Below are positions 4,667 through 51,007 of a DNA stretch of 64,000 nucleotides, piece after piece. Location of the stretch: the IMG/VR virus record IMGVR_UViG_3300046673_000114, positions 1 to 64,000 of that record; one strand, 5' to 3'. The position numbers and the translations under genes are program-made. Position 1 is the first letter of the stretch. Each line of letters starts with the position of its first letter. Origin of the DNA: a virus. Below the pieces are notes generated by a model, which saw only the letters and a list, made by a program, of their open reading frames with translations, was not told the DNA's origin and ran no database searches.

Positions 4667-7600
4667 ATGGCAAGTCTCGGCGAATTGATGGTCATTATCA
4701 CCGGCAACGCTGATGGTTTAAAGGCCGCGTTAGCCGAAGGTAGCGAGTCGACAGAAGCGTTCGGCGGCGAAATGGACGCGGCTGGCGCTAGTGCAACTGG
4801 TTTCGCTGCGGGTACTGGTGAAGCAGAAGCGTCGGCAACTGGTATGGCTGCCGGTATGGATGATGCGACCGCGAGTGCAGGAGAGCTAGAAGGTGGTTTA
4901 GGCGACGCTGCGGTAGCTGGTGGCGCTGCTGCTGGCGGATTAAAAGACACAGAAGCGGCAGCTACCGACGCGAAAGCGGGAATGAGCGACGCAGCTACCG
5001 AAGCTGGTGGCCTAGGTAGTGCGCTTACAAGCGCGGGTACGTTAGGTGCAGCAGGTATAGGTATCGCCACCGTTGCCGTTGCGGCGTTCGCTATTAAGTC
5101 CGGTGAAACCGTTGATAATGCTTATTCTCAGATGGGAAAAGCAACTGGCTTACAGGGTACTCAACTTCAATCACTTGAGACGCAGTGGGGTAACGTTTAT
5201 GCGAACGTTCCTGCAAGCGCGAGCACCGTAGCGACGGTTATTGATAAAGTAAATAACTCGCTTGGATTACAGGGTGACGCGTTAGGAAAAGCAACGCAAG
5301 ATATTATTGATTATAGTATTGCGACCGGAACCGACGCCACTAGCGATACCGACTCTTTTACGACCGGCTTAACAGAAGCGAATCGTGGGCTCCAAGCGAT
5401 GCACGAGCCCCTTATGACGACCGCGCAGTTATCTGATATGTCTACCGTAGCGTTTCAGAAGACCGGAAAGGGAATCCAAGATTGGGGGCCGGCGTTCGAT
5501 AAAGCTACCGCGTCGATGACTGCGATGGGAATGTCTATTCCTCAGCAAGTCGCGGCTCTTTCTGCGTTCTCACAAGCTGGAATACCCGCTAGACAGTTAA
5601 CTTCTTTATTACAGGGAATCGGCCCCGCCGCCGATAAAGCGGGAGAGAGTCAACAGGCGTTTTGGCAACACTTACTCGAAGATGGAAAGACGGGTGTTTA
5701 TACTCAAGATGAGCTTAAGCTTCTCGGCAAGAACCAAGATAACTTCACCGCAGCGGTTAAGTCGGGGACTATCACTAATCAGGCGTATATAAGCTCTCTT
5801 CAGAATAGCGGTGGTGCGACTGAAAAAGCCGCCGAATCAAACGAGACGTTTGGCGAAGCGTTAACCGAGCTTGAAAATAAGTTAACATTAGCGTTTGCCC
5901 CGCTTGGGACTACTATACTTACCATATTAAAGAACTTCATCGTCGCGTTAACGCCGGTAATTAGTTTTATTGGTCTTTTAGCGAAAGGCTTCGCGGCTCT
6001 ACCTATGCCAATACAAGCGGGTATGCTCGCTATAGGGCTTATAGCCGGTGGTGTCGCTGCTGCCGGACTCGCGCTTAAAATGTTTAATATTAATATTGGA
6101 GATATTATTACGAGCATCACGAAGCTAAAAGGTGCAGGTCTTAGCGATATAACTAATCAACTTAAAGAATTTGTTGGTTTAGGTGGTAGTGGTGCGGCTA
6201 AAGGCGTAGAGGCCGAAGCAGAGAGCGCCGTTGGCAGTGCAAGCTCGAAAAGACCGTGTCCGATAGACCCCGCGTGTTTTGATAAGTGTACTCAGAACGC
6301 GAAAGGCACGACGAGCGAACTAGAGAATATGCAGAATAAGGGGCAGGGCTTCGATAATCTTCTTCAAGACGCTACAGGAAAAACGTCGAATCTCGGTGAT
6401 GTTATAGGTGACGCGTCTGGAGAAACGGGAGAGCTTGCCGCCGGTGCAGGTGACGTTGGCGAAGGATTAGCCGCCGCCGGTGAAGGTGGGGGGATTCTAA
6501 GCGGTATAATGGGTGCTCTTCCGGGGCCGCTCGCGGGAATTCTCGGTAGCGTAGGCGGAATAGGTGAAGGACTACTTGGTGGTGCCGGTGCGGCAGGGGG
6601 ACTAACGGGTGGCTTAGGTGCTGCTGTAGCAGCGTCAGGGCCGTTAATACCAATAACCGGCGCTGTAGCTCTTGGTTTAGGTACAATGGCCGCTACGTCT
6701 GGAACGTTTAGAGGTATGCTCGGCGGTGCGGCTACTGCTGCTGGCGGCGTTATGACTCAAGTGCAGGGCATAGCTGGCGCGCTGATGAGCGGTAACTTCT
6801 CACAAGCAGGTCAATTACTTCAACAGGGATTTCAAGGCGCGATAGACTCACTTAAGAACTTCGATTTCGGTGAGTGGGCCGCGCAGATGATTCAGTCGAT
6901 TAAAGAATCCGTTGGTAATATCGGCGGAATGATTCTTAACGGGCTTTCTAGCTTATCTAACATAGCCGATACGATAATGAACTGGCTAAACGGCATTGAT
7001 TGGAACAGCGTCGTAGATGGTCTTGTAAAAGCAATCACCGGCTTATTCGGCGGTGGTGGCGGTGGCGGTGGCAAGTCTGCTACGACTTCAGTAAGTACCG
7101 GAATGAATAAATCACTCGTAGACGGCGCGACACAAGCAGCGCCTACGGTTTTAATGAAACTCGTGGGGGCGTTGGGGGGTCTCGCTGTTGCGTTATTATC
7201 GATATTCCCGAAGATAGCGATGGCACTTGGTCAGGCGATTCTTAATTATTTAGTAACGCTCGATTGGGGAAGCATCGCGAATCAGCTATGGAGTGCGATA
7301 CAGGGGGCTTTAGGAACGTTAGGCACGTGGGTGTGGGGTTTGCTCGTGCAGGTTCCGGGTCTTCTATGGCAGGGATTCACTTCAGCTCTAGGAACGTTAG
7401 GCACGTGGTTATGGGGACTGCTTACACCGATTCCGGGCGAATTATGGAACGCTTTCGTTAGCGCTATTGGAACGTTTGGAACATGGTTATGGGGTCTACT
7501 TTCACCGATTCCGGGTGAGTTATGGAATTCGGTAACGACACAGAACTGGGGACAGATAGGGCAAAACATTCTAACAGGCGTTGTAAGTATCGGTGGTAGC

Positions 7601-8143
7601 GTTTTAAGCGCCATTACGGGTCAAGATTGGGGGCAGATAGGGCAGAATATCCTAAACGGCATCACGAGTTTAGGTGGACAGATGGGAAGCGCAATATCTG
7701 GTGCCGTAACGAGCGCGCTTTCGGGCGCGAATATCACGTTTACTATCCCGATTATTAATAAAACAGTCTCGTTTAACTTAGCCGAGGGTGCGTATATCGC
7801 AGCCCGTTCGGGCGGCGTTTTAGCGGTTATCGGTGAAGGTGGCGAAGATGAATACGTTATTCCCGCTTCGAAGATGGGCGACCCGACGGCTATATCGGGT
7901 CTACCGAGATTAGCAGGCGGAGCGCTAGTCACTGGGAGCGTTGGTAACACGAACGTTTCAAACGTTATGAGATTAAGCGCGGCTACACCGAGCACGAGCG
8001 CACAACAGAGCGGTGGCGATATGCACATTCATTTCGATGGCCCAATTCATACGGTATCTGTGCAAGAAGCGCGACAGTATGCGAAAATTGTCGGCAATGA
8101 ATTCGATAGCTATCGACGTCGGAAAGGGCAGATGAGAGGTTAA
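4667..8143 (+). CDS. Tail tape measure protein
   Basis: 1158 residues with AAAGAAAGG just upstream. The N-terminal part is Ala/Gly-rich and helical. The middle holds hydrophobic helical segments around residues 415-475 and a Cys cluster near residue 530 (RPCPIDPACFDKC). Gly-rich linkers follow, then three 26-residue Trp-rich tandem repeats (7312-7545). The C-terminal part has a VIGEGGEDEYVIP segment, common at tape measure C-termini. Length, position after the G/GT pair and composition all fit. By the usual 1.5 angstrom per residue the tail would be about 170 nm. Confidence 0.85.
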   Translation: MASLGELMVIITGNADGLKAALAEGSESTEAFGGEMDAAGASATGFAAGTGEAEASATGMAAGMDDATASAGELEGGLGDAAVAGGAAAGGLKDTEAAATDAKAGMSDAATEAGGLGSALTSAGTLGAAGIGIATVAVAAFAIKSGETVDNAYSQMGKATGLQGTQLQSLETQWGNVYANVPASASTVATVIDKVNNSLGLQGDALGKATQDIIDYSIATGTDATSDTDSFTTGLTEANRGLQAMHEPLMTTAQLSDMSTVAFQKTGKGIQDWGPAFDKATASMTAMGMSIPQQVAALSAFSQAGIPARQLTSLLQGIGPAADKAGESQQAFWQHLLEDGKTGVYTQDELKLLGKNQDNFTAAVKSGTITNQAYISSLQNSGGATEKAAESNETFGEALTELENKLTLAFAPLGTTILTILKNFIVALTPVISFIGLLAKGFAALPMPIQAGMLAIGLIAGGVAAAGLALKMFNINIGDIITSITKLKGAGLSDITNQLKEFVGLGGSGAAKGVEAEAESAVGSASSKRPCPIDPACFDKCTQNAKGTTSELENMQNKGQGFDNLLQDATGKTSNLGDVIGDASGETGELAAGAGDVGEGLAAAGEGGGILSGIMGALPGPLAGILGSVGGIGEGLLGGAGAAGGLTGGLGAAVAASGPLIPITGAVALGLGTMAATSGTFRGMLGGAATAAGGVMTQVQGIAGALMSGNFSQAGQLLQQGFQGAIDSLKNFDFGEWAAQMIQSIKESVGNIGGMILNGLSSLSNIADTIMNWLNGIDWNSVVDGLVKAITGLFGGGGGGGGKSATTSVSTGMNKSLVDGATQAAPTVLMKLVGALGGLAVALLSIFPKIAMALGQAILNYLVTLDWGSIANQLWSAIQGALGTLGTWVWGLLVQVPGLLWQGFTSALGTLGTWLWGLLTPIPGELWNAFVSAIGTFGTWLWGLLSPIPGELWNSVTTQNWGQIGQNILTGVVSIGGSVLSAITGQDWGQIGQNILNGITSLGGQMGSAISGAVTSALSGANITFTIPIINKTVSFNLAEGAYIAARSGGVLAVIGEGGEDEYVIPASKMGDPTAISGLPRLAGGALVTGSVGNTNVSNVMRLSAATPSTSAQQSGGDMHIHFDGPIHTVSVQEARQYAKIVGNEFDSYRRRKGQMRG
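7312..7545 (+). repeat. Three 78-bp tandem repeats in the tape measure gene
   Basis: Units start at 7312, 7390 and 7468, each encoding a 26-residue LGTxGTWxWGLLxxxPGxLW module. Spacing is exactly 78 bp. Copies are similar at DNA level, implying internal duplication that lengthens the tail in steps. Confidence 0.8.
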
Positions 8144-8144
8144 G

Positions 8145-14357: not shown

Positions 14358-17300
14358 ATGTTACCGCTTATTTATTACGTTCCTCAGAATAGCTCAACGT
14401 GGACGAATCTCGGCTCAGCAGGAACCGCGTATAACGGAAGCGTTAGTGTAAATAGATATAACGCACCAGACTCGACGCACGGCGCGCCGTTTTGGGGCCG
14501 AACTGATACGAACGATTATATTTGTTATAAAGGTACTGATATTGATAATCTAAATACAATCGGTTTCGAAATCGGTTTCGAATATGCTGCCTATAACGGA
14601 ACCGGCCTCGCAAAACTTTGGGATAAAGGCGTTGGCACGTTTTTCCTACAGATTAACGAAAACACACATAAACTACTTCTCTATCGAACAACTAATCTTT
14701 CCGGCGGCGGTCAGGGTGAGGTCTATTGGACCGCAACAACAACGTCACTCACATCAGGTAATGAGTATTATATCCAAGTTGGCTGGACGTGCGGCACGCC
14801 AGCGAGTCCGGGTACTCCGCACATATACATAAGCGCTAACGGCGGAACACCAGCATTACAGAGCCTAACATATTCGGGCGCGTCGAGTGGAACGTGGGCG
14901 AGCGACGCAGGCCTACCTGCAAATGTCTTTAACTATAGCTCAAGTTCTAATTGTCCGAGCAGTTCCGGCAGCTATGGTTTAACAGGATATCTATACGTAT
15001 TTCGACAGTACAACACCGACATATCGAGTTATATCACTAGCGCGAGTAATGGTTCATGGTACATAGATAAGCGTCGAATGTATTCGTGGATTACAAACTA
15101 TGGTAGTGGACTTAATACTTTCTTCGGCTATGAGACGATTAGCGGCAACTCGGCTTTCCCTAAAAGCGGCACGGCTATTGGAAACGTCGACCAACTTGCG
15201 GGATTTACCGGCCATTCTCATTACGATGGTTCATTATGTTATGCGCCACTAGGCACGAGTTACGCGCAGTGGGTATGGCAGAATAATAACGATTATATCT
15301 ACACAAACGGCGCGTATTCGCTTACGGCCCCGGCAATTAACGATGTAGCCGTTTTTTCGTCAGAGATTGCCTTTTATTATGACGGTAATTGGGGTTCCGC
15401 GACGTATCCGCGAATATTTTCGAAAATGGATTCTAGCTCAGGAGAGTTCACACTATATCTCGATGCGTCCGGCGGCGCTGACACTGGTAACCTTATTCTT
15501 CAGCGAGAGTGTACCGACGGTAGCATTGACACGTGGATGACTACCACGACAAAGTTAACGGCGGGTAACTGGTATGAAGTACAAGTCTTGTGGGTGTGTG
15601 GGTGTGGCCCTAGCTCGCCCCCGTACAGCGCACCAGTTATTCACATTAACACCGTCACTCAATACGTCGCTCATAATCAAATCGGCGGGGCGGATTGGGT
15701 TTTCGACGGAGCGGGTAATTTAGTAATTGGTAACCGCGACGGTTCGCTCGGGCTTGGCGAATGTATGCAGGGAAGCCTCGTTATCTTTAGATGGTATCCT
15801 TATAATGCGTCGAGTCTTTTCGCGTCGGATTACGCGAGCGATAGCCAGCAGTGGCCGCTAACCGCAAGTTCGATTTCGATTAGCGCACCGGCTTCGGCTA
15901 TACAGAGTCAGAACTTTACGATTAGCGGCACGCTTTCTTATGCGTCCGGCGGAATCTCCGGTGCGACTATCTCACTCTTAAACGCGGATACTATGGGTGT
16001 TATTACTACTACCACCACAGACGGTAGTGGCAACTATTCGTTTAGTATTAGTTCATCGACATTAGGCTCTAGCGACTTTAAAACCTCTTTTGCCGGTAAT
16101 TCTACGTATTCTAGTTCAATAAGTGCGGAAGTAACCGTTACTATATCATCCGGCATCATTTACGACGTCGACGGTGCGATTGTAACTAACTGTCAAGTAG
16201 AGTTTATAGGCTCGTCTTTTCCATCATCCGGCACAACGATAACAAACGTCGGACAAGCTTCGGGTGAGAACGGAACTGCATATCAAAATGATTATACGTT
16301 AGTAGCTGCCGGAGACGCGGGATGGGTGTTCCCGAATAATCCATCTGATATGATAACCGTACCTGCTAATGCGGTCTTAGATGATATGCAGGCGGTGACG
16401 TATGAATTTCTTGTTTATTATGCGGGTGGTAGTGGAAATTTATATTCTAAAGGGGACGCCTCAAATCTAAATTACCCCTTAATGTCTATACAGTTTAATT
16501 CCACAAGTAACTGCCTACAAGTTAATAAAGTCGCTTCTACTGGCACGCGTTGGAATACGTGGTTTACAACTACTACACCAGTAACGGCCGGTAACTGGTA
16601 TTTTATTCAGATAACGTGGAACGTCGGCACAACTGAAGGAACTGCAAATCCGATTTGTTATATTAATAATGTTAATCAAACGATTTCTCAGGCGCTAACG
16701 AACACTGGAAGTTGGACTACCGATGCAGGGGGTATCATATGTATCGGGAATGAGTACCCCGCTGCAAATCCGAGTCAGTTCTACGGGACTCTAGTAGTAG
16801 CTAGAATTCATAACGTTATCCTTACCTCCGGTGCAGGTAGTCAGCTAGAAGGTAATTATAACGCGAGTAAATGGCGCGCACCTACAATTAAAAACGCATA
16901 TGTAAACGTTGATGTGCCGGGTGCCGCTGCTGCACTAATCACACTAAGCAAAATACGAACCGACGCGAAGCTTAACGTTTCATCTATCGTTTCTAATGCG
17001 ACAGCAGTTAGTTCCGTTGTTTCTCGCGCAGACGCGAAAATTAACGTTGCCACTATTACGAGTACGGCCGCACCTGTAACGTGTATTCCGGGACTCGGGC
17101 ATTCTATTACCGTAGACGTACCGGGCGCGGTAGCTGCACCCATCACGCCATCCGCGTTTACTACCGGCATTACCTCGCCGGAAACCGACTCACTCGCCGC
17201 GTCTACAGAAGCGGGAAGTTTAAGTAACGTAACCGTAACCATAGCTGAAGCCGATTCCCTAGCGCCGTCTGAAAACGTTTTATCGAATACTTCAATAGCC

Positions 17301-20300
17301 GAAACGGATGCGCTCATAGCGTCAGAGACGCCGAACGTCGCGCTCGAGGCCGATGAGGTTAGTACCCTTACACCAATCGAGGCACCATCAACCGTAGCTA
17401 CATTAGCCTCTACCGAAATAGACACACTTATACCAATAGAAGCGTTAACGATTGAAGAAGATATAACGATAGGAGAAACCGACGCGCTAAGCGAAGTAGA
17501 ACAATCGGGAGTCGGTGGTAATTATGAGTACGTTAACGCATCAGAAGACATTATATTACTCAACCTCGAAACGCAAGCGTTAAGTGCGACCGCAGAAGCA
17601 GACGAGACGCAGGTTCTAACACCGGACGAAGAGGTTATAGATGAAGCTGATTTAACTGAAATCGATACGATTATACCCATAGAAGCGCCAGCAGGCGAGG
17701 TAGATGTCGGCGAGACTACTTTAATATCATCAACAACTGAGACTATCGATACCGAGGCGTACTATTCGCCGGTTATACACGAAACCGTTGTACTTACGCC
17801 GATAGAAGCAACCGGCACGGATAGCGGAATCGTAGCATCGGTAATCGTTAACGAGTTTATTACACTAAAACCTCTTGAATTAACCACCCCTCAGATTCCG
17901 GTGCTTGTCGCCGAACCGGAAATACTCGTCACTTTCGAAGAGATATTACCCGAGGTTGTTATCGATTATGCCGATAGCGATACGCTAGACATAACCGAAT
18001 CTATAAGCATCGAAGCGAAGTTCTCTCCGTTACAGGGACTCGTAGAAAGTGACGCGCTTAATCCTCTAGAAACGTCAACGTTCGCGTCGACGCTTAGTAT
18101 TAATGAATCTACGAAACTCGCGCCGTCTGAAACCGCGCATCTTACACTAGCAGAAGTCGAATATATAACGCATAACGAAGTGATATACCTCGACGCCGAG
18201 GACTCAACGCTTAACGACCCCGTTGTACTAATACAGACGCCACACGGTCCCGCGACGATAGACGCGCTTGAGGTACAAATTAACACTACTGAATCTAACA
18301 AGCTTAATTCTATAGAAGTCGCAGATATTAATCCGAATGTCTATCACGCACCACCTCCGCTAGTTGATTATGTCTTAGAAGTTCGAAAGAAGGACGGTAA
18401 AAATTGGGATTTAGTAGGCGTATTAGAAAACCGCGTCGCACCAGAGTTACAATGTGAAGTAGGTGCGGCCGACCAGCTTACCTTTAACCTCCCACTTTCC
18501 GACCCAAAATCGCTTTTATTTAACGCATCTAACACGCGTGGATTAGAGGTATGGTATTACGGTAGAGACTCGAAGCTTAAACAAGTTTTTACGATTACCG
18601 GCGGCGGTAAGACAGAAGGCTATCGAGACTACGGCGGAAACCCAGGTGGAAGCGGTAGCACGCTCGGAACCGGCTCGGGAGATTGGCTCTACGTTACCGC
18701 GATTGGGCCTGAGGCATATCTAACAATGTATTATGTCGCAGACTACACCGCAACGCAAAAGTATGTTTCTTCGATATTAAACGCTATTTGTGGAGAAATA
18801 ATAGATGATGGATATATAACCGCCATTCTCGTTGACCCTGCTCTTAATAAACTAATTGATATTGACTTATCGTGGGAAAACCTACAGAGTGCGTTAGGTA
18901 ACATCATTCAACAAACCGGCGGCTATATGCGCGTCTTAGTAAACTCGAATAACCCGTCGAGTCGAGTACTATATCTCTCAAGTGAAGTCGCTTCAGACAT
19001 ATTCCCGATTAATCTCGGCGGCGTGACGGCTGATTCGGTGGGCGTTTGCTCGTGGGGGCCAAATAGATTAGACTTATTCGCGCGAGGCGAAAACTCGAGT
19101 ATCTATCATAAATATTGGAACGGTACTTCGTGGTCTGGTTGGGCTACTCTTGGCGGAACCACTGATAGCGCGCCTACCGCGTGCTCGTGGGGGCCGAATA
19201 GAATAGACGTTTTCGTTCGCGGAACTGATAATATATTATATCAAAAATATTGGAACGGTGCGTGGTCTACATGGATACCACTCGGTGGCACGCTCACCTC
19301 TGCACCAGCCGCAGCTTCGTGGGGGCTAAATCGCATCGATGTAGTTGCTCGCGGAACGAACAATCAACTATACCACATATACTGGAACGGTATAAATTGG
19401 TCAACGTGGGGTACTCTAGGCGGCGACTGCACGAGCGACCCGGCTATAGTATCGTGGGGTGAAAACAGACTAGACGTCTTCGTGCGCGGCACCACTATGG
19501 AGTTGTATCATACGCGATGGGACGGTTCAACGTGGTCGACGTGGGAAAACCTCGGCGGTTATCTAACCACCGGCCCGGGCGCTGCGTCGTGGGGGGAGAA
19601 TAGAATAGACGTTTTCGCTGGCGGAGAGGATAACGAGCTAGAATGGCAATATTGGGGTGGCGACGTTGGTACTCCAATTCACCAGCAGGGAATCGCGTTC
19701 GACGGGACGTATTATTATTATACAACGGATTCTACGATTTATAAGCTCGACGCAAGTTATAACGTCATTGCGTCTAACGCAAACGCGGCCACGCAGTGTG
19801 GTGGTGACCACCTCGGCGGTTTAGGCATACATAGCGGAACTATATACCAATTCTGCACAACGGATGAGACGCCGCAAGTTATGATGGTTGGATTATTTAA
19901 TACGAGCGATTTAAGCTTTATAAGAAATGTCGATTTAACGAAAGTCGCCGGGAATCCGCCGACGTGGAGTACTTATAACATCGGCGGCGTGGGTGTAGAC
20001 GCTGCGAATAACGAACTTGTAGCGATTCACTTCGGTGACGCCGGTAGTCTGTCAGTCGTGGCCCCAAAGGTGTTTAAATTCAACTTGAGCACGTTTGCGT
20101 ACTTAGGTTACATTACTGGAACGGGCGACTTAGGAATCTATTATCAAGGCATCTGCCCGTATGATGGGGTTTATTATTACACCGTCGATAATTCGTCAAA
20201 CGCCAACTCACCTACGCATCTACTCGGCGGCGTGTATATGATGAACCCTGACGGAACGGGCCAGACGATGATAATACCTGCGTCTGTTTTCAATAATGCG

Positions 20301-21530
20301 GTATCCGATTTAGCGTGGAGTGGTGAGATAGAATCACTCAGCGTGACGGACGCGGGTATTGTTGTGCTTTGTGGTGGCTATATCTTTACCTTCTCTCTTG
20401 AACCGCCATATACATTACAAAGCGTCACACCGGGACTACAAGAATTAACGCCTGTGTGGTCTGGATGGGAGTCTTTAGGTGGTTACGTTCAATCATCACC
20501 GGCCGCTTGTAGTTGGGGATATGGAAGAATCGACGTGTTTCTCGAGGGGCCGGATGGTGCAGTCTATCAAATGATATACCAAGAAGACGTGTGGCAGCTA
20601 AAGAAAAAGAATAGCCTAACTAAACACGGACGCGTAGACTGTCCTAAATGCCCGAAGGCCGTGAGAAAAGAAGCAGCCGAGCGTAAAGAAGCAGCCGGAG
20701 ACGTAGAACCGCAAAACGTATGGTCTAATTGGAACGCGCTCGACGTAGACCAGATTCAGCCACCGGTCCCGATTATAAAATACGATGTATTCCCGAGTAT
20801 GGGTGACGTGATAAATAACGACTTAGGCGATAGCGCATACGACGGAGTTGCGTTTAATAACGGTTTCACACAACTTCAATGCGGCGTTGGTGCGTGGGTG
20901 TTTAACGCGCCGCAAGACGTCACGTGGACGAATAACATTCAAATTACGAGTGGGCCGGATATTACGGGATTAGCAGATATGACCCTTAGTATGTGCGTAT
21001 ATATCGACGCGAATCAAACGGCGGTAAATAACCCGAGGCTATTCTCGAAACAACAGGAGAACGGCGCGTTTGAGCTAATCTACGACACGTTTAACCAAGC
21101 ACTCATACTTAGACGATACACAACAAATAACGATTATGACGAGTGGAGAAGCGCACAGAACTCAGTTCCGATAGGCGATTGGTATTATATTCAGTTAATA
21201 TGGCAAAGTAGCGTTAGCCCGGAAACAGAGAGTCCGCCGGTTATTATCGTTGATAACGAGCAGTTAACACTTGTTAATACAGAAGCCGGAACGGGATGGT
21301 GGTCGCCCGACTACTCCAACAATCTCTATATCGGTAATAGCTACTTATTAGATGGCAGCGGTGATTTCGTTGGCATAATGAGCTTCTTTAGCCTATATGG
21401 CGCGGCTATAGTAGACCCAACAGACGACTTTAACACTAACGCGTGGCGGCGAGACCCCGCCGACGTAGACGCGCAGCTTGTTTATAATTTCTTCCCACAA
21501 ATAGTAACTTCCGAGGTGGCAAGTCAGTGA
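14358..21530 (+). CDS. Giant tail-tip protein: LamG domains, acidic repeats, N-terminal half of tail hub, PLL propeller
   Basis: 2390 residues. Approximate order: LamG-like (1-225), LamG-like (245-490), Ig-like (505-600), LamG-like (620-840), acidic E-T-D-x-L-x-P-x-E repeats (940-1330), tail hub N-terminal half (1335-1555), PLL propeller with SWGxNRxDVFxRG blades (1557-1770), an inserted second propeller-like domain (1773-2030), a last PLL blade (2031-2070), then another LamG-like domain (2140-2385). The hub part starts VLEVRKKDGKNWDLVGVLEN and includes LTFNLPLSDP, the classic opening of Tal/gp44-type baseplate hubs. The hub then stops where the family expects its second half, which lies in the next gene. 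The LamG, Ig and PLL domains probably bind glycans. Confidence 0.7.
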   Translation: MLPLIYYVPQNSSTWTNLGSAGTAYNGSVSVNRYNAPDSTHGAPFWGRTDTNDYICYKGTDIDNLNTIGFEIGFEYAAYNGTGLAKLWDKGVGTFFLQINENTHKLLLYRTTNLSGGGQGEVYWTATTTSLTSGNEYYIQVGWTCGTPASPGTPHIYISANGGTPALQSLTYSGASSGTWASDAGLPANVFNYSSSSNCPSSSGSYGLTGYLYVFRQYNTDISSYITSASNGSWYIDKRRMYSWITNYGSGLNTFFGYETISGNSAFPKSGTAIGNVDQLAGFTGHSHYDGSLCYAPLGTSYAQWVWQNNNDYIYTNGAYSLTAPAINDVAVFSSEIAFYYDGNWGSATYPRIFSKMDSSSGEFTLYLDASGGADTGNLILQRECTDGSIDTWMTTTTKLTAGNWYEVQVLWVCGCGPSSPPYSAPVIHINTVTQYVAHNQIGGADWVFDGAGNLVIGNRDGSLGLGECMQGSLVIFRWYPYNASSLFASDYASDSQQWPLTASSISISAPASAIQSQNFTISGTLSYASGGISGATISLLNADTMGVITTTTTDGSGNYSFSISSSTLGSSDFKTSFAGNSTYSSSISAEVTVTISSGIIYDVDGAIVTNCQVEFIGSSFPSSGTTITNVGQASGENGTAYQNDYTLVAAGDAGWVFPNNPSDMITVPANAVLDDMQAVTYEFLVYYAGGSGNLYSKGDASNLNYPLMSIQFNSTSNCLQVNKVASTGTRWNTWFTTTTPVTAGNWYFIQITWNVGTTEGTANPICYINNVNQTISQALTNTGSWTTDAGGIICIGNEYPAANPSQFYGTLVVARIHNVILTSGAGSQLEGNYNASKWRAPTIKNAYVNVDVPGAAAALITLSKIRTDAKLNVSSIVSNATAVSSVVSRADAKINVATITSTAAPVTCIPGLGHSITVDVPGAVAAPITPSAFTTGITSPETDSLAASTEAGSLSNVTVTIAEADSLAPSENVLSNTSIAETDALIASETPNVALEADEVSTLTPIEAPSTVATLASTEIDTLIPIEALTIEEDITIGETDALSEVEQSGVGGNYEYVNASEDIILLNLETQALSATAEADETQVLTPDEEVIDEADLTEIDTIIPIEAPAGEVDVGETTLISSTTETIDTEAYYSPVIHETVVLTPIEATGTDSGIVASVIVNEFITLKPLELTTPQIPVLVAEPEILVTFEEILPEVVIDYADSDTLDITESISIEAKFSPLQGLVESDALNPLETSTFASTLSINESTKLAPSETAHLTLAEVEYITHNEVIYLDAEDSTLNDPVVLIQTPHGPATIDALEVQINTTESNKLNSIEVADINPNVYHAPPPLVDYVLEVRKKDGKNWDLVGVLENRVAPELQCEVGAADQLTFNLPLSDPKSLLFNASNTRGLEVWYYGRDSKLKQVFTITGGGKTEGYRDYGGNPGGSGSTLGTGSGDWLYVTAIGPEAYLTMYYVADYTATQKYVSSILNAICGEIIDDGYITAILVDPALNKLIDIDLSWENLQSALGNIIQQTGGYMRVLVNSNNPSSRVLYLSSEVASDIFPINLGGVTADSVGVCSWGPNRLDLFARGENSSIYHKYWNGTSWSGWATLGGTTDSAPTACSWGPNRIDVFVRGTDNILYQKYWNGAWSTWIPLGGTLTSAPAAASWGLNRIDVVARGTNNQLYHIYWNGINWSTWGTLGGDCTSDPAIVSWGENRLDVFVRGTTMELYHTRWDGSTWSTWENLGGYLTTGPGAASWGENRIDVFAGGEDNELEWQYWGGDVGTPIHQQGIAFDGTYYYYTTDSTIYKLDASYNVIASNANAATQCGGDHLGGLGIHSGTIYQFCTTDETPQVMMVGLFNTSDLSFIRNVDLTKVAGNPPTWSTYNIGGVGVDAANNELVAIHFGDAGSLSVVAPKVFKFNLSTFAYLGYITGTGDLGIYYQGICPYDGVYYYTVDNSSNANSPTHLLGGVYMMNPDGTGQTMIIPASVFNNAVSDLAWSGEIESLSVTDAGIVVLCGGYIFTFSLEPPYTLQSVTPGLQELTPVWSGWESLGGYVQSSPAACSWGYGRIDVFLEGPDGAVYQMIYQEDVWQLKKKNSLTKHGRVDCPKCPKAVRKEAAERKEAAGDVEPQNVWSNWNALDVDQIQPPVPIIKYDVFPSMGDVINNDLGDSAYDGVAFNNGFTQLQCGVGAWVFNAPQDVTWTNNIQITSGPDITGLADMTLSMCVYIDANQTAVNNPRLFSKQQENGAFELIYDTFNQALILRRYTTNNDYDEWRSAQNSVPIGDWYYIQLIWQSSVSPETESPPVIIVDNEQLTLVNTEAGTGWWSPDYSNNLYIGNSYLLDGSGDFVGIMSFFSLYGAAIVDPTDDFNTNAWRRDPADVDAQLVYNFFPQIVTSEVASQ

Positions 21531-24043
21531 GTATAGTAACCGTAGAATCCGATGAGATTGCAGTTTTATTACCGTATGAACAGATTCCTTTTTCGAGTAT
21601 AGAAGCGGACGAAGTGTCTACGCTACTACTCGATGAGGTAACGCTTCCCGAATCGTGGTATCTAGAAGAAGCAGGAGTAAGCGTCGTTAGCACGCTTGTT
21701 CCGAACTTCGGTGCCGCTGGAACGGACTATCACGCTTATGGCGCGCAAAATGACTTTATAACGCTTCCGAGCGGCGCGACAGCGTGGCAGCTTAGCGGCA
21801 ATATGGATTATATAGCGATTCCTCGCGGCGTTAGTATTGATAACGTAACGCAAACGACCTTCGAATGGTTGTTCATCCTTAATGATTATAGTGGTAACCA
21901 CGCCGGTAGATTATGGTCAAAACGTCAGACTCACGACGGAAGTTTTGATGTTTACGTAGACGATATAAACGGCTGTATCGTAATTCAACGAGGCACGATT
22001 CTAAACGAGCTAGACGTGTGGCAGACGCCAAATAACGTAATAGACGTAGGTCAGTGGTGCAACCTTCAGATAACGTGGAACTGTGATATTTCGGCCGGTG
22101 GCGACGCGCCGATAATTATAATAAACGATACACCTCAAGAACTTCTTCACACGAACGTTGCGAATCCTGCTCTATGGGCGGATGATAGTAACGACGACGC
22201 GTTTATTGGAAATGTTATAGGTGGCGGCTATAATCTAAATGCGACAATAGCGGTATTTAGACATTTTACGACCATAAAAACCCCGTCGAAGCTTACTACG
22301 GACTATCTCGCCGACGTGTGGCGCACGAGTAATAAACAATTAGGCCCGATTACCGTCTCATCGGGACCAAGTAACGACACCGACCCGATACTCACTATTG
22401 AAAAGAATCTTAGTAACATCTACGCACAGACTGATTTCTCGACGGTCGTCACGCAATGCGAGCCGCGAGGCATAGGACAAAAGCCAGCAGAGCTTCGATT
22501 TAATAATCCTAATTATTATCCTAATGCACAAGCGTTACAGCTCTATACAACCGACACGAGTTGGGCGTATTTTAGACTTCAAAGTCCTTATGTTTATGCT
22601 AACGCTACATATTCTGGACAGCCGTTGCCTAGCACTATGCTCGTAGGAACCGGATTAACTGATTTCTGCAATATTTCGCCTACATTACAAGCCGATAGTA
22701 CATACCCCGACCCTAACATGGGAGAGTCACCGCCAGCACCTTATGACGGTCAGCCGATTGGACGTGATGACTTTGCTGGACACGGACTCGTTTTTAAACT
22801 AAACGCTAATACGCGTTTCACCGACGCTAGTTTTTTCTTATATAAAAAACCGGCAGCGACGGCCGGTCAAAAAGCGCATCAGTTTCTAGTAGGAATTTAT
22901 TATATACAAAACACCCCCGACGCGGCCCTAAATGAATACGTTCCATCTCAGGGGCCGTTAGTTTGGTATATCGGTGACCTCGACCAGATTCAGCCGGATA
23001 CGTGGGCGTGGTACACATTCCCCTTACAACAAGCAGCGATAAGTCATACACCGTGGGATTGGTACGCTCTAGTGATTTCAGTGTATCCGACGACCGGCGC
23101 GAATTGGGAAGGCGACATTCTTTGGGTCGGTTTTAAGATGACGAATGTAGAACCGACACAAAATACCCCGTATCAGTTTATGTGGACGTTCGCAGGTAAT
23201 CCCGCGTACTCTGCCGGAAGTAATGTTAAGAATTGGGCAAGCGCAGCAATGGCCGCGAAAGCACCGGGTGCTATGTCGCGCCCTGCTTGCGTTCTTCATT
23301 CAATAACAACAGATTTAACGAGCGAGTTTCAACAGAGTCTAAACGCGTGTCCGGGCTGGCAGCTTAAAATGCCGATAGCAAAATACTCGCCGACTTCGCA
23401 ATATTGGGCGCATTACCAACAAGCGCCGTGGCTTATCGATTGGGAGGCGTATTCGACAATGGGTAAAGTAGAAGGAACCTATAAATCAGACACGCTTTCC
23501 TCACACGACGCGCTCTTTAATGCCGGTGCAAATTATCTATCAACGGTGTCTAACCCGACTTATACAATTTCGCTAAGTGCATTAGACTTATACGATTTAG
23601 ACCCACAGAAGAATTGGGCGGAAGAGCTTCGTCTCGGAACGACGGTTATGGTACTCGACGCCGAGCTTAATATTCAAGAACAATGTCTCGTAACGAAAAT
23701 TACTAAAGATAACCTCGAGCAGCCTCACGACATACAGATAGAATTAAACAGTTTATACGCGACTGCGGCGAGGTCGATGGCGAACATAAATCAATCGAGT
23801 ATTACCTATCCAAAGTATCTAAGCGGCCAAACGGTCTCTGCACCGTATATAATGAGTGGTGCTTGCACTGATACGACCCCGGCATCACTCTACTTTGAGA
23901 TAAAAGAAGGGAGTACGCTTGTTCCGTCGGTTACGATAAGCATAAACCCGACACCATATCAGGTGGCGACGAGCACCGGCGTTACCTCTGATACAAGTAC
24001 CTCTACCGCGTTTAAAATGAAAATAGACGGTGTAGTGGTGTAG
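21527..24043 (+). CDS. Second tail-tip protein: LamG domain plus C-terminal half of tail hub
   Basis: 838 residues with GTG start overlapping the previous stop (GTGA) and GAGGTGG upstream, so the two are coupled. Residues 1-40 carry one more acidic E-x-D-E repeat and 45-265 a LamG-like domain. From about 275 it matches the second half of Tal-type hubs: ILTIEKNLSNIYAQTDFSTV, then VTQCEPRGIG, ending with ALDLYDLDPQKNW, LRLGTTVMVLDAEL and a DIQIELNSLY strand. Together with the previous gene it would rebuild a full baseplate hub with about 1100 foreign residues between its halves. Confidence 0.65.
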   Translation: MSIVTVESDEIAVLLPYEQIPFSSIEADEVSTLLLDEVTLPESWYLEEAGVSVVSTLVPNFGAAGTDYHAYGAQNDFITLPSGATAWQLSGNMDYIAIPRGVSIDNVTQTTFEWLFILNDYSGNHAGRLWSKRQTHDGSFDVYVDDINGCIVIQRGTILNELDVWQTPNNVIDVGQWCNLQITWNCDISAGGDAPIIIINDTPQELLHTNVANPALWADDSNDDAFIGNVIGGGYNLNATIAVFRHFTTIKTPSKLTTDYLADVWRTSNKQLGPITVSSGPSNDTDPILTIEKNLSNIYAQTDFSTVVTQCEPRGIGQKPAELRFNNPNYYPNAQALQLYTTDTSWAYFRLQSPYVYANATYSGQPLPSTMLVGTGLTDFCNISPTLQADSTYPDPNMGESPPAPYDGQPIGRDDFAGHGLVFKLNANTRFTDASFFLYKKPAATAGQKAHQFLVGIYYIQNTPDAALNEYVPSQGPLVWYIGDLDQIQPDTWAWYTFPLQQAAISHTPWDWYALVISVYPTTGANWEGDILWVGFKMTNVEPTQNTPYQFMWTFAGNPAYSAGSNVKNWASAAMAAKAPGAMSRPACVLHSITTDLTSEFQQSLNACPGWQLKMPIAKYSPTSQYWAHYQQAPWLIDWEAYSTMGKVEGTYKSDTLSSHDALFNAGANYLSTVSNPTYTISLSALDLYDLDPQKNWAEELRLGTTVMVLDAELNIQEQCLVTKITKDNLEQPHDIQIELNSLYATAARSMANINQSSITYPKYLSGQTVSAPYIMSGACTDTTPASLYFEIKEGSTLVPSVTISINPTPYQVATSTGVTSDTSTSTAFKMKIDGVVV

Positions 24044-24047
24044 AACG

Positions 24048-25055
24048 ATGACAACATACGCAGCGTATCAATTATGTGCAGAATCATTCTCAAACTATGC
24101 TCAACTTAAAAGTCAGGGATTTATTGACCTCGTTCTAATTGAAAATATAAATAGTAGTTGTAACGCGTGTCCGGTTCCGCAGGGCTTTATAAACGGATGT
24201 ACTGCGCAGGGAATGGGTTCGCTCTTAAATAACGGTAATGACGCTGGCGGAGGTGGGGGTGGCGCGAATCAGTCATACTATGCCGGACTAAAAAAGCAGG
24301 GATTAAGTGGGGCCGGTGGTGAGTCTGAAAGTCTAGATGAAGTTAACGCCATTTTAGCAAACACAGATAGTACGTTTGTCTTTATGAACTATGGTGGACA
24401 GGGAACCGGCGGCCCAACAGGTAATAATAACATATGGGCTTCGCAGGGTGGTCACTGCTCGTATAGTGGTGGTGCAACGATAGGCTCAGGACAAAAAGTC
24501 TCTTCGTTTATAGAACCTTACGCACCGGGACTAATGTCGACTGAAGAGGTAGAAACCGAAGCCGGGTACAATAAAGACGCTGGTTGTTTTGAGGTTGGGA
24601 TTTTAATAGTAGATTGGTTCCCCGGTGCTAATTATGCGGGATATGCAGACGCGGTAATATCCTCAGGAGCTACCTTCGGGGGTTTTCAGTTCTGGTATGT
24701 AGAAGGAGACAGCGCGAGCGGAAGTAATAATTGGGGACCCGGAAGTAGCGATATAAATAATATGATGAAACAGTTTCCGCCGAATACTAAAAACATAGTG
24801 CAGCGCGCCGGTGGGTCGTCACCCGGTGGCGGCGGAGGTGGGGGGTCGGGGCCCGGTAGTAATATTCCGGCAATCACAGGCGGTAATACGTTCGGCGGTA
24901 ATAGTGAGGTTGATATTTTACCATATCTAACGCAAAATCATCAGGGTCAGCCAACGCCGGGTGTACACTACGTAGAGCTTAGTTCGGCAGATGGAATACG
25001 CGCACAAGTAACCGCTTCAGTACGCGTACGAACTTGGCAGCCAAAGGAGATGTAG
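24048..25055 (+). CDS. TIM-barrel-like putative glycan-degrading tail enzyme
   Basis: 335 residues. The first 250 alternate strand and helix: FIDLVLIEN, LLNNGNDAGG (59-68), LSGAGGESES (86-95), FVFMNYGGQGTGG (110-122), VGILIVDWFPG and GFQFWYVEG (about 211-219). Strand ends rich in Asp, Glu, Asn and Gly fit a (beta/alpha)8 hydrolase such as GH25-like lysozymes, but I recognise no known family. A Gly-rich hinge leads to a 68-residue C-terminal domain that is duplicated in the next gene and may anchor both to the tail. A paralog of the catalytic part is at 49838. Function is inferred. Confidence 0.5.
   Translation: MTTYAAYQLCAESFSNYAQLKSQGFIDLVLIENINSSCNACPVPQGFINGCTAQGMGSLLNNGNDAGGGGGGANQSYYAGLKKQGLSGAGGESESLDEVNAILANTDSTFVFMNYGGQGTGGPTGNNNIWASQGGHCSYSGGATIGSGQKVSSFIEPYAPGLMSTEEVETEAGYNKDAGCFEVGILIVDWFPGANYAGYADAVISSGATFGGFQFWYVEGDSASGSNNWGPGSSDINNMMKQFPPNTKNIVQRAGGSSPGGGGGGGSGPGSNIPAITGGNTFGGNSEVDILPYLTQNHQGQPTPGVHYVELSSADGIRAQVTASVRVRTWQPKEM
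24852..25055 (+). repeat. 204-bp direct repeat, copy 1 (C-terminal tail-anchor domain)
   Basis: Aligns without gaps to 25856-26059 at an offset of 1004 bp, both ending at a stop codon. Differences are mostly at third codon positions. It encodes a 68-residue domain ending VRVRxWQPKxM. Confidence 0.85.
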
Positions 25056-25063
25056 ATTAGATA

Positions 25064-26059
25064 ATGTCGCAATATATCTACTACAAGTTTGATAAAAGTT
25101 CGACTACAATCACAAATTATGGTAGTGGTGGTGCTGGTTGGAACGGAGCCGCTGCACGAAATCAGTATGCTACCGACTCAGCAGGGCATCCGAGGTGGGG
25201 GCCGCTAACCGGTAATCAAGATGTGATACACGTTCCCGGCGGTCTTAGCAATCCATATCAGCACACGTGGCAGATTGGATTAAATATTCAGCAGTGGTGG
25301 CCGGTTAAAGGTATAGACTCTAGTGGCATCCTTTGTGGTAACGACGGAAAGCTCTTTTCTTACGCTAATGACCAGTACTACGCCTACCTTCACGAAGAAG
25401 GGTCAACCGCAAGCGGGTCGCTAGTTGAAACAGGCATACATCATTTTACTGTTGAAATTGCGGACGTCGGTAGTGGTAGTGTTGAGTTTTGGCTTGGTGT
25501 GGGTAGTAGTAAACCCGTTCAAATATCTACTGATGGAGGCGAAGGTGACGAGGGTGGGCGACACTGGTGGGATTTCGACTACAACTTACAGTTAAACACT
25601 AATTACTATTTTCAGATTGTGATAAACCTTAGTAGCGGCGTGACGGGAAGCGATTATTATATTGGCAATTGTGCGCCGGGGTGTGCTGATACGATGGTAG
25701 TCGGCTTTCCGTGCGGATGTTACATTTACTCGTGGCGTGAAGATAACACAGTTCTTGACCTATCGGGCGGTGGCAACTGGAAAGACGACGTTGGCTGTTG
25801 GGCTGGTGGAACGTGCGGGGGCGCAGCCGGTGGCGGCGGCGGCGGTGGTGGTGGTCCCGGTAGCGTAATTCCAGCAATTACAGGTGGTAACACGTTCGGG
25901 GGTAATAGCGAGATTAACATTCTACCTTATCTAACGCAAAATCATCAGGGTCAGCCAACGCCGGGTATGCACTCTGTCGAGCTTAGTTCAGCAGATGGAA
26001 TACGCTCGCAAGTAACCGCTTCGGTGCGCGTACGTGATTGGCAACCTAAGAATATGTGA
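25064..26059 (+). CDS. LamG-like tail protein with shared C-terminal anchor domain
   Basis: 331 residues. The N-terminal 235 residues form a LamG-like sandwich opening with YIYYKFDKSSTTITNYGSGG, the same opening style as the LamG units of the giant tail genes (LIYYVPQNSSTWTNLGSAG). A Cys-containing Gly-rich hinge follows (GGTCGGAAGGGGG), then the 68-residue domain shared with the previous gene. Probably a second carbohydrate-binding spike attached at the same virion site. Starts 8 bp after the previous stop. Confidence 0.6.
   Translation: MSQYIYYKFDKSSTTITNYGSGGAGWNGAAARNQYATDSAGHPRWGPLTGNQDVIHVPGGLSNPYQHTWQIGLNIQQWWPVKGIDSSGILCGNDGKLFSYANDQYYAYLHEEGSTASGSLVETGIHHFTVEIADVGSGSVEFWLGVGSSKPVQISTDGGEGDEGGRHWWDFDYNLQLNTNYYFQIVINLSSGVTGSDYYIGNCAPGCADTMVVGFPCGCYIYSWREDNTVLDLSGGGNWKDDVGCWAGGTCGGAAGGGGGGGGGPGSVIPAITGGNTFGGNSEINILPYLTQNHQGQPTPGMHSVELSSADGIRSQVTASVRVRDWQPKNM
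25856..26059 (+). repeat. 204-bp direct repeat, copy 2
   Basis: Second copy of the domain-coding repeat described at 24852-25055. Perfect register (68 codons) shows duplication of a protein module rather than of random DNA. Confidence 0.85.
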
Positions 26060-26304: not shown

Positions 26305-26673
26305 ATGGAAGACGTTGTAAAGTGCATAGACGCAAGACTCGACGAACATCAGGAAAATATCTCTCGTATTAGTACTAGCGTCGAAGACTGCGAAGTTACC
26401 ATAGGGAAACAAGACGTTCGTATCGACCATCTCGAAGAGGGACTTAACGACGTGAAAGCGCACCTCGACCTACAAGATGAGACGACGGACAACCGCTTTA
26501 ACGAATTAAGCGATAAGATAGATTCAATCCAAGTTAATAACGTACAAGCAGAGTCAAACACGCGAAACGCATTACTCACTAAGCAAAACGCGTTTTATGT
26601 CTCACTAATCCTAGCGCTTATCTCACTCATCGGCTACTTACTCTATAACTCGATAAACATAGCGCATATCTAA
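26305..26673 (+). CDS. XhlA-like coiled-coil protein with C-terminal membrane anchor
   Basis: 122 residues. Residues 1-90 are a continuous heptad-rich coiled coil (VEDCEVTIGKQDVRIDHLEE). Residues about 96-114 form one membrane segment (FYVSLILALISLIGYLLYN). This is the plan of XhlA-type hemolysin enhancers that work with holins in phage lysis. The sequence identity to any known XhlA is not established; the call rests on architecture and neighbours. Confidence 0.5.
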   Translation: MEDVVKCIDARLDEHQENISRISTSVEDCEVTIGKQDVRIDHLEEGLNDVKAHLDLQDETTDNRFNELSDKIDSIQVNNVQAESNTRNALLTKQNAFYVSLILALISLIGYLLYNSINIAHI

Positions 26674-26721
26674 ATTGGTATTCGGTGTTAAATTATAAAA
26701 TAAAAGGTGGTGATAAAAAAA

Positions 26722-26916
26722 ATGGGTATAAAGTTAAGTTTAGGTGGTTCGCTTCCGAGCACGGCCGAGTGGCTTCTAATTATCGGTTTTATAGTCGGCG
26801 CACTTGGAATTGCCTCGCAGACGTTTTCATTTAGCGGACAAGACAGCGCAATAATCCTATTTGTGGTCGGCGTTCTGACGTTGCTCGCGAAGACCATTAC
26901 CTCTACATCTGCTTAA
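26722..26916 (+). CDS. Two-helix membrane protein, holin-like
   Basis: 64 residues from ATG 26722, eight bases after GGTGGTGA at 26706-26713; the GTG at 26707 lies inside that site and is unlikely. Two membrane segments (WLLIIGFIVGALGIASQTF and AIILFVVGVLTLLAKTI) are separated by a short polar turn, the usual class II holin plan. It is the last gene of the late operon, directly before a terminator. Lysis role is inferred. Confidence 0.55.
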   Translation: MGIKLSLGGSLPSTAEWLLIIGFIVGALGIASQTFSFSGQDSAIILFVVGVLTLLAKTITSTSA

Positions 26917-27330: not shown

Positions 27331-27362
27331 GTCAATTACCCACGCTAAAGCGATGGGCTTGT
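27331..27362 (-). mobile_element. tnpB 1 right end with guide-RNA (omega/reRNA) 3' hairpin
   Basis: CCCACGC-TAAA-GCG-A-TGGG folds into a hairpin at 27339-27357, just past the tnpB stop, and ends in AATTGAC on the minus strand. In IS200/IS605 elements the 3' end of tnpB and the right end encode the guide RNA. The GCTAAAGC core also occurs next to tnpB 3 and at 28505. Confidence 0.6.
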
Positions 27363-35746: not shown

Positions 35747-36889
35747 ATGAGTTATATCCTAGACCTAGCAAAAAGTTCGTCACCAATCATTAAAGACGAG
35801 CATATTCTAGAATCGAATTATATTCCAGATACAATCGTCGGTCGACATAAGCAGCAAGAAGAGATGTGGCCGCCACTTTCTCATCTTATGAAAGGTCAAC
35901 CAGCGCATCATTTACTCTTAATGGGGCATAACGGTTCCGGTAAAACGGTTGTCATTCGTAGCGTTCTTCGGGACCTCGAGACGGTAACCGACTTTCAGAC
36001 GATATATCTCCCAAGCGTGCGCGACCCTAAGCCTAACTCGGTAATGCGTCGACTTCTAGAAGCATCAGGCGTGGCGCTCCCACCGAAAGACGAGTCGGTA
36101 GCGAGTCTAATAAATCTTCTTGATAAGCATTTATCCACCATAGATAAGCCCATTATATTCATATTCGACGAAATAGACTTCTTTATCTCAAAGGATATGT
36201 GGACGGTTCTTAATTATATCGTGCGCGAAAGAGATATGGCGACCGTCGTAGGCACGACGAACGACCCGAGGCTTCTAAGTAAGATACCGGATAAAAAGTT
36301 AATCTCGGCATATAGACCCTCAACCGTAACATTTCCGCCGTATAACACAGACGAACTACGAGAAATACTCGAGTCGAGAGCTGAGAAAGCGCTTTATGCG
36401 AACGTATTAGAAGCTGAGGTTATACCTCGATGTGCTGCGTTGGCGGTTAGGTTAAATAACGGTGATGCTCGTTACGCTATCTCATTGCTTTCGAAGGCCG
36501 CCGAGATATGTCATACAAACCTTCAAAAGAAAGTTACTAGCGAAGATGTTATACAAGCGGTGCAAGAGCTAGAGAACGAAGAATATGATAAAATAGCCTC
36601 GTTATTATCGGAGCGGCATAAGAACATTCTACGCATATTAATTATTAAAGATAACATACGACGAGCAGAACTACAGGAAGTCTACGAAACTAATAATTCC
36701 TATGATGTTATTTCCGATGTGTGGTTCGCGAGAGAGCTAAGAACGTTAGAAGAATTTGGTCTTATAATCCGATGGTCTAAAGGTAAGGGTCGCGGACTAG
36801 GCGTTACGTGGTTTGTTTCGTTACACGAGGACATTGATAAAGAGAAACTTAAAGAAGTTTTATACCGTGATTTAGGTGGCGGGGCGTGA
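35747..36889 (+). CDS. orc1/cdc6: Orc1/Cdc6 replication initiator
   Basis: 380 residues. AAA+ ATPase with Walker A GHNGSGKT (60-67), Walker B FIFDEID (138-144), a sensor-1 strand TVVGTTNDP, and lid helices with NNGDARYAISLLSKAA (sensor-2 Arg). The C-terminal 100 residues form a winged helix (RHKNILRILIIKDNIRRAEL). These proteins bind origin boxes and load the MCM helicase in archaea. Viral copies usually recruit the host replisome. The gene is probably leaderless, and the right end of a tnpB element follows its stop after a few bases. Confidence 0.9.
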   Translation: MSYILDLAKSSSPIIKDEHILESNYIPDTIVGRHKQQEEMWPPLSHLMKGQPAHHLLLMGHNGSGKTVVIRSVLRDLETVTDFQTIYLPSVRDPKPNSVMRRLLEASGVALPPKDESVASLINLLDKHLSTIDKPIIFIFDEIDFFISKDMWTVLNYIVRERDMATVVGTTNDPRLLSKIPDKKLISAYRPSTVTFPPYNTDELREILESRAEKALYANVLEAEVIPRCAALAVRLNNGDARYAISLLSKAAEICHTNLQKKVTSEDVIQAVQELENEEYDKIASLLSERHKNILRILIIKDNIRRAELQEVYETNNSYDVISDVWFARELRTLEEFGLIIRWSKGKGRGLGVTWFVSLHEDIDKEKLKEVLYRDLGGGA

Positions 36890-36892
36890 CTT

Positions 36893-36921
36893 CTCCCCCA
36901 GCTAAAGCAGGGGGCTTCTAT
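36893..36921 (-). mobile_element. tnpB 3 right end with guide-RNA hairpin
   Basis: CCCCC-AGCTAAAGCA-GGGGG folds at 36895-36914, overlapping the tnpB 3 stop. Its GCTAAAGC core is shared with tnpB 1 and the orphan hairpin at 28505. Confidence 0.65.
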
Positions 36922-49837: not shown

Positions 49838-51007
49838 ATGAATCATACGTGTGTTTACTTCATCGCGGGGGATTCGTATTCGAACCTTCCCGAGATTAGA
49901 AGTGCAGGAATTATAGACGCCCACCTAGTTATTCATGGTGGGGGCGTAACACCGCCAAGCCAATTCGTAAAAGACTGCATTGCAGCCGGTCTAAGCCCGA
50001 TATGCAATAACGGGAACGATGGTGGTGCAGGTTGGGATGGCTCAGCTAGTTACTACCCTAATCTATTTAATATGGGCTATCACGCGGCCGGTGGCGAATC
50101 CGAGCAAGCAAACGAGATTGATGCGATAATGAATTCTGGTATATTCCTCGACTACGGTGGAGAAGGAACCGGCGGGGGAACCAACGACGATGTTTGGAAG
50201 GAAACACATACCGCGCCCGTTCACGGCGGGGGCTGTGCCGGTTACTACGAAACCTACGATGGTTCCGATAACTTTTGGGGTTGGGACGTCGTAGGTAGTG
50301 GAATGAAAGACGCGAAAGCGCACGGCGTGAAAGAAATAGGCATAATGATTGGCTCGTGGATGCTAGACCACTCGACTGTGCAAGACTACATAACACTCGC
50401 GCAGACGATGGAATCTAACGGAATCACTTGTGCGGGTTTCGGGGTGTGGTCGGGCTATAATAATAACATGAATAACGTCTATAACGAGTTTGCGAGCTGG
50501 TATCAACAGCTAATGGCGATTTGGCCGCCAACAAGCATCACAATGAAGAATCGGTTTAGTGGTCCGACACCAACGCCAACACCCACACCGGCACCAGTAG
50601 CCGCCGACGGCTCTAATCCCGCAGTAACGTATCTAAACGGCGTGAAGTATTCATTCGCTCGTGGCCTAAGTAACGCGCTATATTACCTCACCGATGGCGC
50701 GACGAAGTGGCTCTCTCTCGGTGGTACGTTAACCTCGGGAGTAGCGGCCGAAACAGTCGGTAACGAGATTTACATATTCGGTAGAGGGGCCGATAAGAAA
50801 ACAACATACTATCGAACACTCACGAAAGAATGGACTTCAATCGGTGGAATCGCTACGAGTTCGCCCGGCTTAACACTCGACAGCAACGGTAAGACACTTC
50901 TCGTAGAAGTTCGCGGTGGTGATAAAGCAGTCTGGTATAGGACTCTCGATACCACAACAGGCGCAGTATCGCCGGAGTGGCTTTCTCTCGGTGGGGTGCT
51001 TAATTGA
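49838..51007 (+). CDS. TIM-barrel-like putative glycan hydrolase fused to lectin propeller
   Basis: 389 residues. The N-terminal 235 residues are a paralog of the 24048 product: NNGNDGGAG (57-65), GGESEQANEI (85-94) and DYGGEGTGGG (105-114) align with its NNGNDAGG, GGESES and NYGGQGTGG. Then EIGIMIGSWML and CAGFGVWSG follow. A (T/P)-repeat linker ([12 protein letters not shown]) joins it to a PLL-like propeller with WLSLGG, GRGADKKTTYYR and EWTSIGG. A free enzyme with a sugar-binding domain suggests an endolysin- or depolymerase-like protein. No signal peptide is evident. A GGAGAA site is upstream. Confidence 0.5.
   Translation: MNHTCVYFIAGDSYSNLPEIRSAGIIDAHLVIHGGGVTPPSQFVKDCIAAGLSPICNNGNDGGAGWDGSASYYPNLFNMGYHAAGGESEQANEIDAIMNSGIFLDYGGEGTGGGTNDDVWKETHTAPVHGGGCAGYYETYDGSDNFWGWDVVGSGMKDAKAHGVKEIGIMIGSWMLDHSTVQDYITLAQTMESNGITCAGFGVWSGYNNNMNNVYNEFASWYQQLMAIWPPTSITMKNRFSGPTPTPTPTPAPVAADGSNPAVTYLNGVKYSFARGLSNALYYLTDGATKWLSLGGTLTSGVAAETVGNEIYIFGRGADKKTTYYRTLTKEWTSIGGIATSSPGLTLDSNGKTLLVEVRGGDKAVWYRTLDTTTGAVSPEWLSLGGVLN

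Follow-up and report, generated by a model that had tools for sequence, protein, structure and literature searches.

The 64,000-nt window analyzed here, which comes from an 80,483-base virus record (IMGVR_UViG_3300046673_000114), encodes two related proteins of no recognizable sequence family, one among the tail genes and one fused to a lectin. What do these proteins do for the virus, and why would it carry both? A first-pass annotation proposed a new family of glycan hydrolases. We postulate, with a probability of roughly 0.62, that the two proteins belong to an unnamed family of TIM-barrel, glycan-hydrolase-like proteins that serves in the tail-entry and lysis kit of an archaeal virus. The unnamed family itself is real; its members are very probably enzymes and most probably cleave glycans. 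Both reading frames were present and open as claimed, and they contain the following features:

24048..25055, + strand: tail-module barrel protein (335 aa; BLASTP match to the 49838 protein; AlphaFold model)
24048..24815, + strand: predicted TIM-barrel domain of the 24048 protein, with candidate catalytic Glu92 (codon 24321-24323) and Glu156 (codon 24513-24515)
49838..51007, + strand: second barrel protein, composed of barrel, PT linker, and PLL-like lectin (389 aa)
49838..50563, + strand: predicted TIM-barrel domain of the 49838 protein, with candidate catalytic Glu87 (codon 50096-50098) and Glu138 (codon 50249-50251)
50564..50599, + strand: proline-threonine linker of the 49838 protein (direct reading of the sequence)
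50600..51004, + strand: PLL-like lectin domain of the 49838 protein (match to the peptidase lectin described below and to solved PLL lectins)

BLASTP aligned the two proteins at 27% identity over 262 aa (E=5e-18), with homology covering the first ~250 residues; judged from this alignment, the similarity is far above the chance level. The motifs NNGND, GGESE, and YGG(Q/E)GTGG, reported earlier as shared, were found in both proteins and lie at the C-terminal ends of β-3, β-4, and β-5 in both predicted models. NNGND is present in both copies, but its conservation across the whole family is incomplete (N57, N58, N60, and D61 at 86%; residue numbering here and below follows the 49838 protein in an alignment of 26 domains). 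The AlphaFold model of the 49838 domain (9 sequences; pLDDT of 90.4) has eight strands alternating with helices. The model of the 24048 protein (19 sequences) has eight strands in the same order within residues 1 to 256, forming a (β/α)8 barrel; its pLDDT is mostly 70 to 97 in the barrel and lower in loops, and the C-terminal ~75 residues were unresolved. A TIM barrel was thus predicted for both copies, as the first-pass annotation had supposed, and a non-barrel outcome did not arise.

The barrel domain had no credible match in searches of Pfam, PHROGs, NCBIfam, or PDB sequences, and nine family members compared with Pfam matched no family even at E values up to 10. Foldseek searches of the PDB with the 49838 model returned many TIM barrels at TM <0.6, mostly generic ones (aldolases and epimerases), and no specific family; the model of the tail copy retrieved generic barrels only. 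The best solved glycosidase among the matches listed was a GH26 lichenase (TM 0.57), and the best match among viral models to the 49838 protein was named GH5 (TM 0.58). No match to a known non-enzymatic family surfaced in the sequence libraries or in Foldseek.

Successive profile scans detected the barrel domain in 26 other viral contigs. Relatives were found in 0 of 50,697 phage records and in none of a plasmid collection, and a pattern scan of prokaryote genomes, which distant relatives could escape, also found none. Family members occur in the tail module and near the gene for the packaging enzyme:

55256..56134, + strand: terminase large subunit, ATPase part (PF03237, E=3.2e-18)

In a phylogenetic tree, the 49838 domain fell within a branch of ten copies of the near-terminase type (support, 99/98), and the 24048 domain grouped with the tail copies of two related contigs, L037 and L051, with further near-terminase copies close by. 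The tree mixes tail and terminase positions, with three changes between them. The long branch of 24048 makes its placement unsure, but the separate branches suggest an ancient split or independent acquisitions. The two proteins had been described as paralogs within one virus; they are homologous, but they do not look like a recent pair, and we rejected a recent duplication within the virus on the basis of these separate branches, subject to the same uncertainty about 24048. Diverged tail-module barrels with neither of the candidate glutamates occur at L081:2280-3023 and at L082:1040-1759 and 6264-8162, one of them in tandem with an intact copy; by sequence, these look like binding-only derivatives.

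In TIM barrels, the active site is formed at the C-terminal strand ends. Conserved polar residues of the family were enriched there (P=0.004, in a test that takes positions as independent). The most strictly conserved acids were E87, which is the first Glu of GGESE and a good candidate for catalysis, and E138. E87 (end of β-4) and E138 (end of β-6) were present in 23 of the 26 aligned domains, as were Y140 and W204 (end of β-8). In the 24048 protein, the counterparts E92 and E156 were invariant in the 19-sequence alignment and are placed by the model at the ends of β-4 (88-91) and β-6 (151-155). Both glutamates were lost in the other three domains, all diverged tail-module copies, where the pair reads A/R, A/D, and D/Y; although only three sequences are involved, this joint loss suggests that the two residues act together. 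We propose that the family would cut an archaeal envelope glycan by general acid/base chemistry, with the glutamates at the ends of β-4 and β-6 as the catalytic pair.

A TIM-barrel hydrolase or lyase could instead act on the host envelope by other chemistry, for example as an esterase, amidase, phosphodiesterase, or lyase. The top Foldseek matches were indeed non-glycosidase barrels (aldolases and mutases), and the catalytic motif of a known glycosidase family was not found in the barrel domains. However, the residues invariant in the family alignments include no conserved His or metal-ligand set, the Glu pair together with Tyr140 and Trp204 at the strand ends resembles a sugar-binding cleft, and barrels of this family are fused to lectins. 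We consider such chemistry unlikely.

We think it improbable that the barrel is a non-catalytic, glycan-binding pseudoenzyme that serves as a receptor-binding protein in the tail, with the 49838 protein in a similar binding role. The barrel domains do travel with lectins, and the three diverged tail copies indicate that binding-only members probably exist. Against this reading, the same Glu pair, Tyr, and Trp persist in the 23 intact domains at about 25 to 75% identity, and the near-terminase copies all retain these residues.

Several established families share the barrel and its acids in part. GH25 and GH18 enzymes are barrel hydrolases with a catalytic Glu at the end of β-4, and many phages use GH25 enzymes for lysis. 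E87 occupies the same place, but the residues at positions -2 and -4 from it are Gly and Ala in the 49838 protein. GH18 membership was rejected because DxxDxDxE is missing and GGESE has no Asp at -2 or -4; GH25 membership was rejected because DxE is missing from β-4 and PF01183 was not matched. In clan GH-A, which includes GH5 and GH26, the second catalytic Glu is on β-7, and Asn often precedes the acid/base Glu. The barrel family resembles GH5 and GH26 in fold, at the TM scores given above, but its second Glu is on β-6 and Gly precedes E87. No conserved Glu was found at the C-terminal end of β-7, E166 being at the N-terminal end of that strand, and clan membership was ruled out on these motif grounds.

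By its placement, the Glu pair fits a carboxylate-pair glycosidase of the GH114 type and not GH18, GH25, or clan GH-A. The endo-α-galactosaminidases of GH114, GH135, GH166, and GH191 carry their acid pair on β-4 and β-6 (strands inferred from residue numbers in PMC12054363), the same strand ends that hold E87 and E138, and a remote member of this group might act on a galactosamine-containing archaeal polymer. The group's nucleophile on β-4 is Asp, though, in contrast to the Glu in all 23 intact barrel domains, and its three-stranded insertion after β-3 has no counterpart in the 49838 model, where strand 53-60 is joined to helix 72-79 by a loop of only 11 residues. No Pfam profile of the four families was matched at E values up to 10, and none of the families appeared in the top 50 PDB fold matches; we regard membership as decidedly improbable.

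The nature of the host bears on the likely substrate, and a replication gene in the window is informative:

35747..36889, + strand: Cdc6/ORC-type replication initiator, an archaeal marker (PF22703, E=2.3e-19)

A Cdc6/ORC protein with the lid domain (PF22703) is encoded by this virus and by two relatives. To our knowledge, bacterial tailed phages normally lack Cdc6/ORC proteins, so the host of this tailed virus is, from its gene content, probably an archaeon. Archaea have no murein, and the substrate is therefore probably not peptidoglycan. A Cdc6 scan for placement of the host found nothing. Two TnpB (IS605-type) genes lie at 27345-28454 and 36902-38020, and a third TnpB-like gene, preceded by a TnpA-like gene, lies outside the window at record positions 78970-80471. 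A TnpB with 48% similarity to one from a Methanomethylovorans plasmid was discarded as host evidence because bacterial TnpBs are equally close.

The first copy sits in a tail module; this module and the genes just after it have the following features:

4667..8143, + strand: tape measure protein, tail module marker (PHROG 991, E=1.2e-19)
14358..21530, + strand: 2390-aa tail-module protein with PLL (DUF346) repeats at ~19080-19640 (PF03984, E=1.7e-16)
21527..24043, + strand: tail protein of the prophage endopeptidase tail family, directly upstream of 24048 (PF06605, E=1.9e-14; PHROG minor head and tail families)
24852..25052, + strand: C-terminal tail tag ("anchor") of the 24048 protein, 67 aa, unresolved in the model
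25064..26059, + strand: adjacent tail protein that shares this C-terminal tag (25856-26056); in L037 and L051, homologues adjoin the tail barrel
26305..26673, + strand: small protein with a coiled coil and one apparent transmembrane segment, a holin-like candidate (direct sequence reading)
26707..26916, + strand: 69-aa protein with two apparent transmembrane segments, a holin candidate (direct sequence reading; 69% conserved in L009)

The 24048 gene comes after the tape measure and tail-tip genes, as do its counterparts in L037 and L051, in agreement with its earlier assignment to the tail module. The feature earlier termed an anchor domain proved to be a tag of about 65 to 67 aa at the C terminus; the 25064 product ends in a sequence 88% identical to it. 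A C-terminal stretch of the L037 tail-tip protein matches part of this tag (63.6% over 33 aa). In the tail modules of L037 and L051, the barrel, a papain-family peptidase, and the 25064 homologue adjoin, and all three proteins end alike, with endings that differ between the viruses. We infer from these shared endings that the tag docks the proteins onto one tail structure. Of these three, only the barrel and the 25064 product were seen in the tail module of the window virus, with no tail peptidase. The N-terminal part of the 25064 product had no credible Pfam match, and the 26305 and 26707 products matched no holin family. The DNA coding for the tag forms a 234-nt direct repeat (24820-25053 and 25824-26057; 82% identical) that could permit recombination of tail cassettes.

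The second copy has a lectin in place of the tag. The proline-threonine linker and PLL-like (DUF346) lectin assigned to the 49838 protein were both recovered. A lectin-domain profile, to which the 14358 protein contributed one DUF346 stretch, retrieved solved PLL lectins at E=1.9e-120. The 49838 lectin resembles the 19212-19565 stretch of the 14358 protein. Over 148 aa that include the linker, it shares 64% identity with the lectin fused to a papain-family peptidase (PF00112, E=3.4e-15), whose gene lies beyond the window at record positions 71604-72851. Most near-terminase copies likewise carry lectin or Ig-like domains instead of a tag. The first-pass annotation had rightly seen a TIM barrel in each protein, the lack of a sequence match to known families, one copy in the tail module, and one fused to a lectin; it had missed E138, the archaeal signal, the lectin-bearing peptidase, and the tag on the 25064 product.

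A papain-family peptidase was found in 19 of the 22 barrel-bearing records, which are not independent, some being near copies, and these peptidases retain the Gln, Cys, His, and Asn of papain (aligned without the L037 intein). In G014, barrel and peptidase genes are each present twice: once in the tail module, where their products have a C-terminal tag in common, and once side by side at the opposite contig end. The second peptidase gene is cut off by one end of the contig and seems to continue at the other, suggesting a circular genome. A close relative, G016 (L044), has its second barrel-peptidase pair just before the terminase gene. The recurrent pairing suggests that the barrel and the papain-like peptidase form a shared kit for passage through the host envelope, inward and outward. 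It is highly improbable that the 49838 gene is an auxiliary polysaccharide-degrading gene for host nutrition, apart from lysis: it does lie close to genes for replication and packaging, ~24 kb away from the tail module, but its product has no apparent signal peptide, its place near the terminase gene is conserved and often beside the papain-like peptidase, and a homologous domain is found in the tail of the same virus.

Under our preferred reading of an envelope-directed glycan hydrolase, the catalytic module would remain constant and the C-terminal module would set the site of action. The 24048 protein, docked at the tail tip by its tag, would open the envelope or strip a surface polymer on entry. 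The 49838 protein, with its PLL lectin, would act like an endolysin at exit, together with the papain-like peptidase that bears the same lectin. An arrangement with one enzyme on the tail and another free with a binding domain recalls the virion-associated hydrolases and endolysins of tailed phages; it differs from them in the probable murein-free archaeal host, the putative new catalytic family, the papain-like partner, and the shared tail tag. The pseudomurein endoisopeptidases PeiW, PeiP, and PeiR are comparable as lysis enzymes of tailed archaeal viruses, a candidate role here; they cleave peptide bonds in pseudomurein, whereas the peptidase partner of the present barrel belongs to papain family C1, and the barrel itself would be a different, separate enzyme. 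In a recent survey, archaeal lysis proteins were mainly pseudomurein endoisopeptidases and virus-associated pyramid proteins (PMC12596118).

We speculate further, as a tentative and somewhat doubtful extension, that these barrels constitute a new clan of envelope glycan hydrolases specific to tailed viruses of archaea. Each virus would use the clan twice, both times with a papain-like peptidase, in a tagged tail set for entry and a lectin-bearing set for lysis, and the degenerate tail copies would have become receptor-binding proteins. If true, such viruses would have a two-enzyme route into and out of archaea that lack murein. How tailed viruses enter and leave such hosts is poorly known, and the barrel family offers a testable enzyme along with a partner protein and probable catalytic residues. 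Should activity be shown, the family would count as a new one among the glycoside hydrolases and might help to break open uncultivated archaea.

Several neighboring genes and relatives deserve mention. At L037:8808-10802, the catalytic part of the tail-module papain-like peptidase is interrupted by an intein that has an HNH endonuclease region (PF14890, E=4.6e-16). A papain-like protein related to the virus's peptidase is annotated as an endolysin in Alicyclobacillus phage MMB025 (INPHARED PV686781.1, 48102-48707). Just upstream of a barrel-lectin gene, L007:6393-7868 encodes a 491-aa protein whose C terminus is Ig-like and whose N-terminal part matched nothing in Pfam. At 44371-46682 in the window, a gene for a viral GT4-like glycosyltransferase (PF20706, a weak match) adjoins one for a UDP-glucose/GDP-mannose dehydrogenase (PF03721, E=1.7e-46), a pair that possibly modifies surface sugars.
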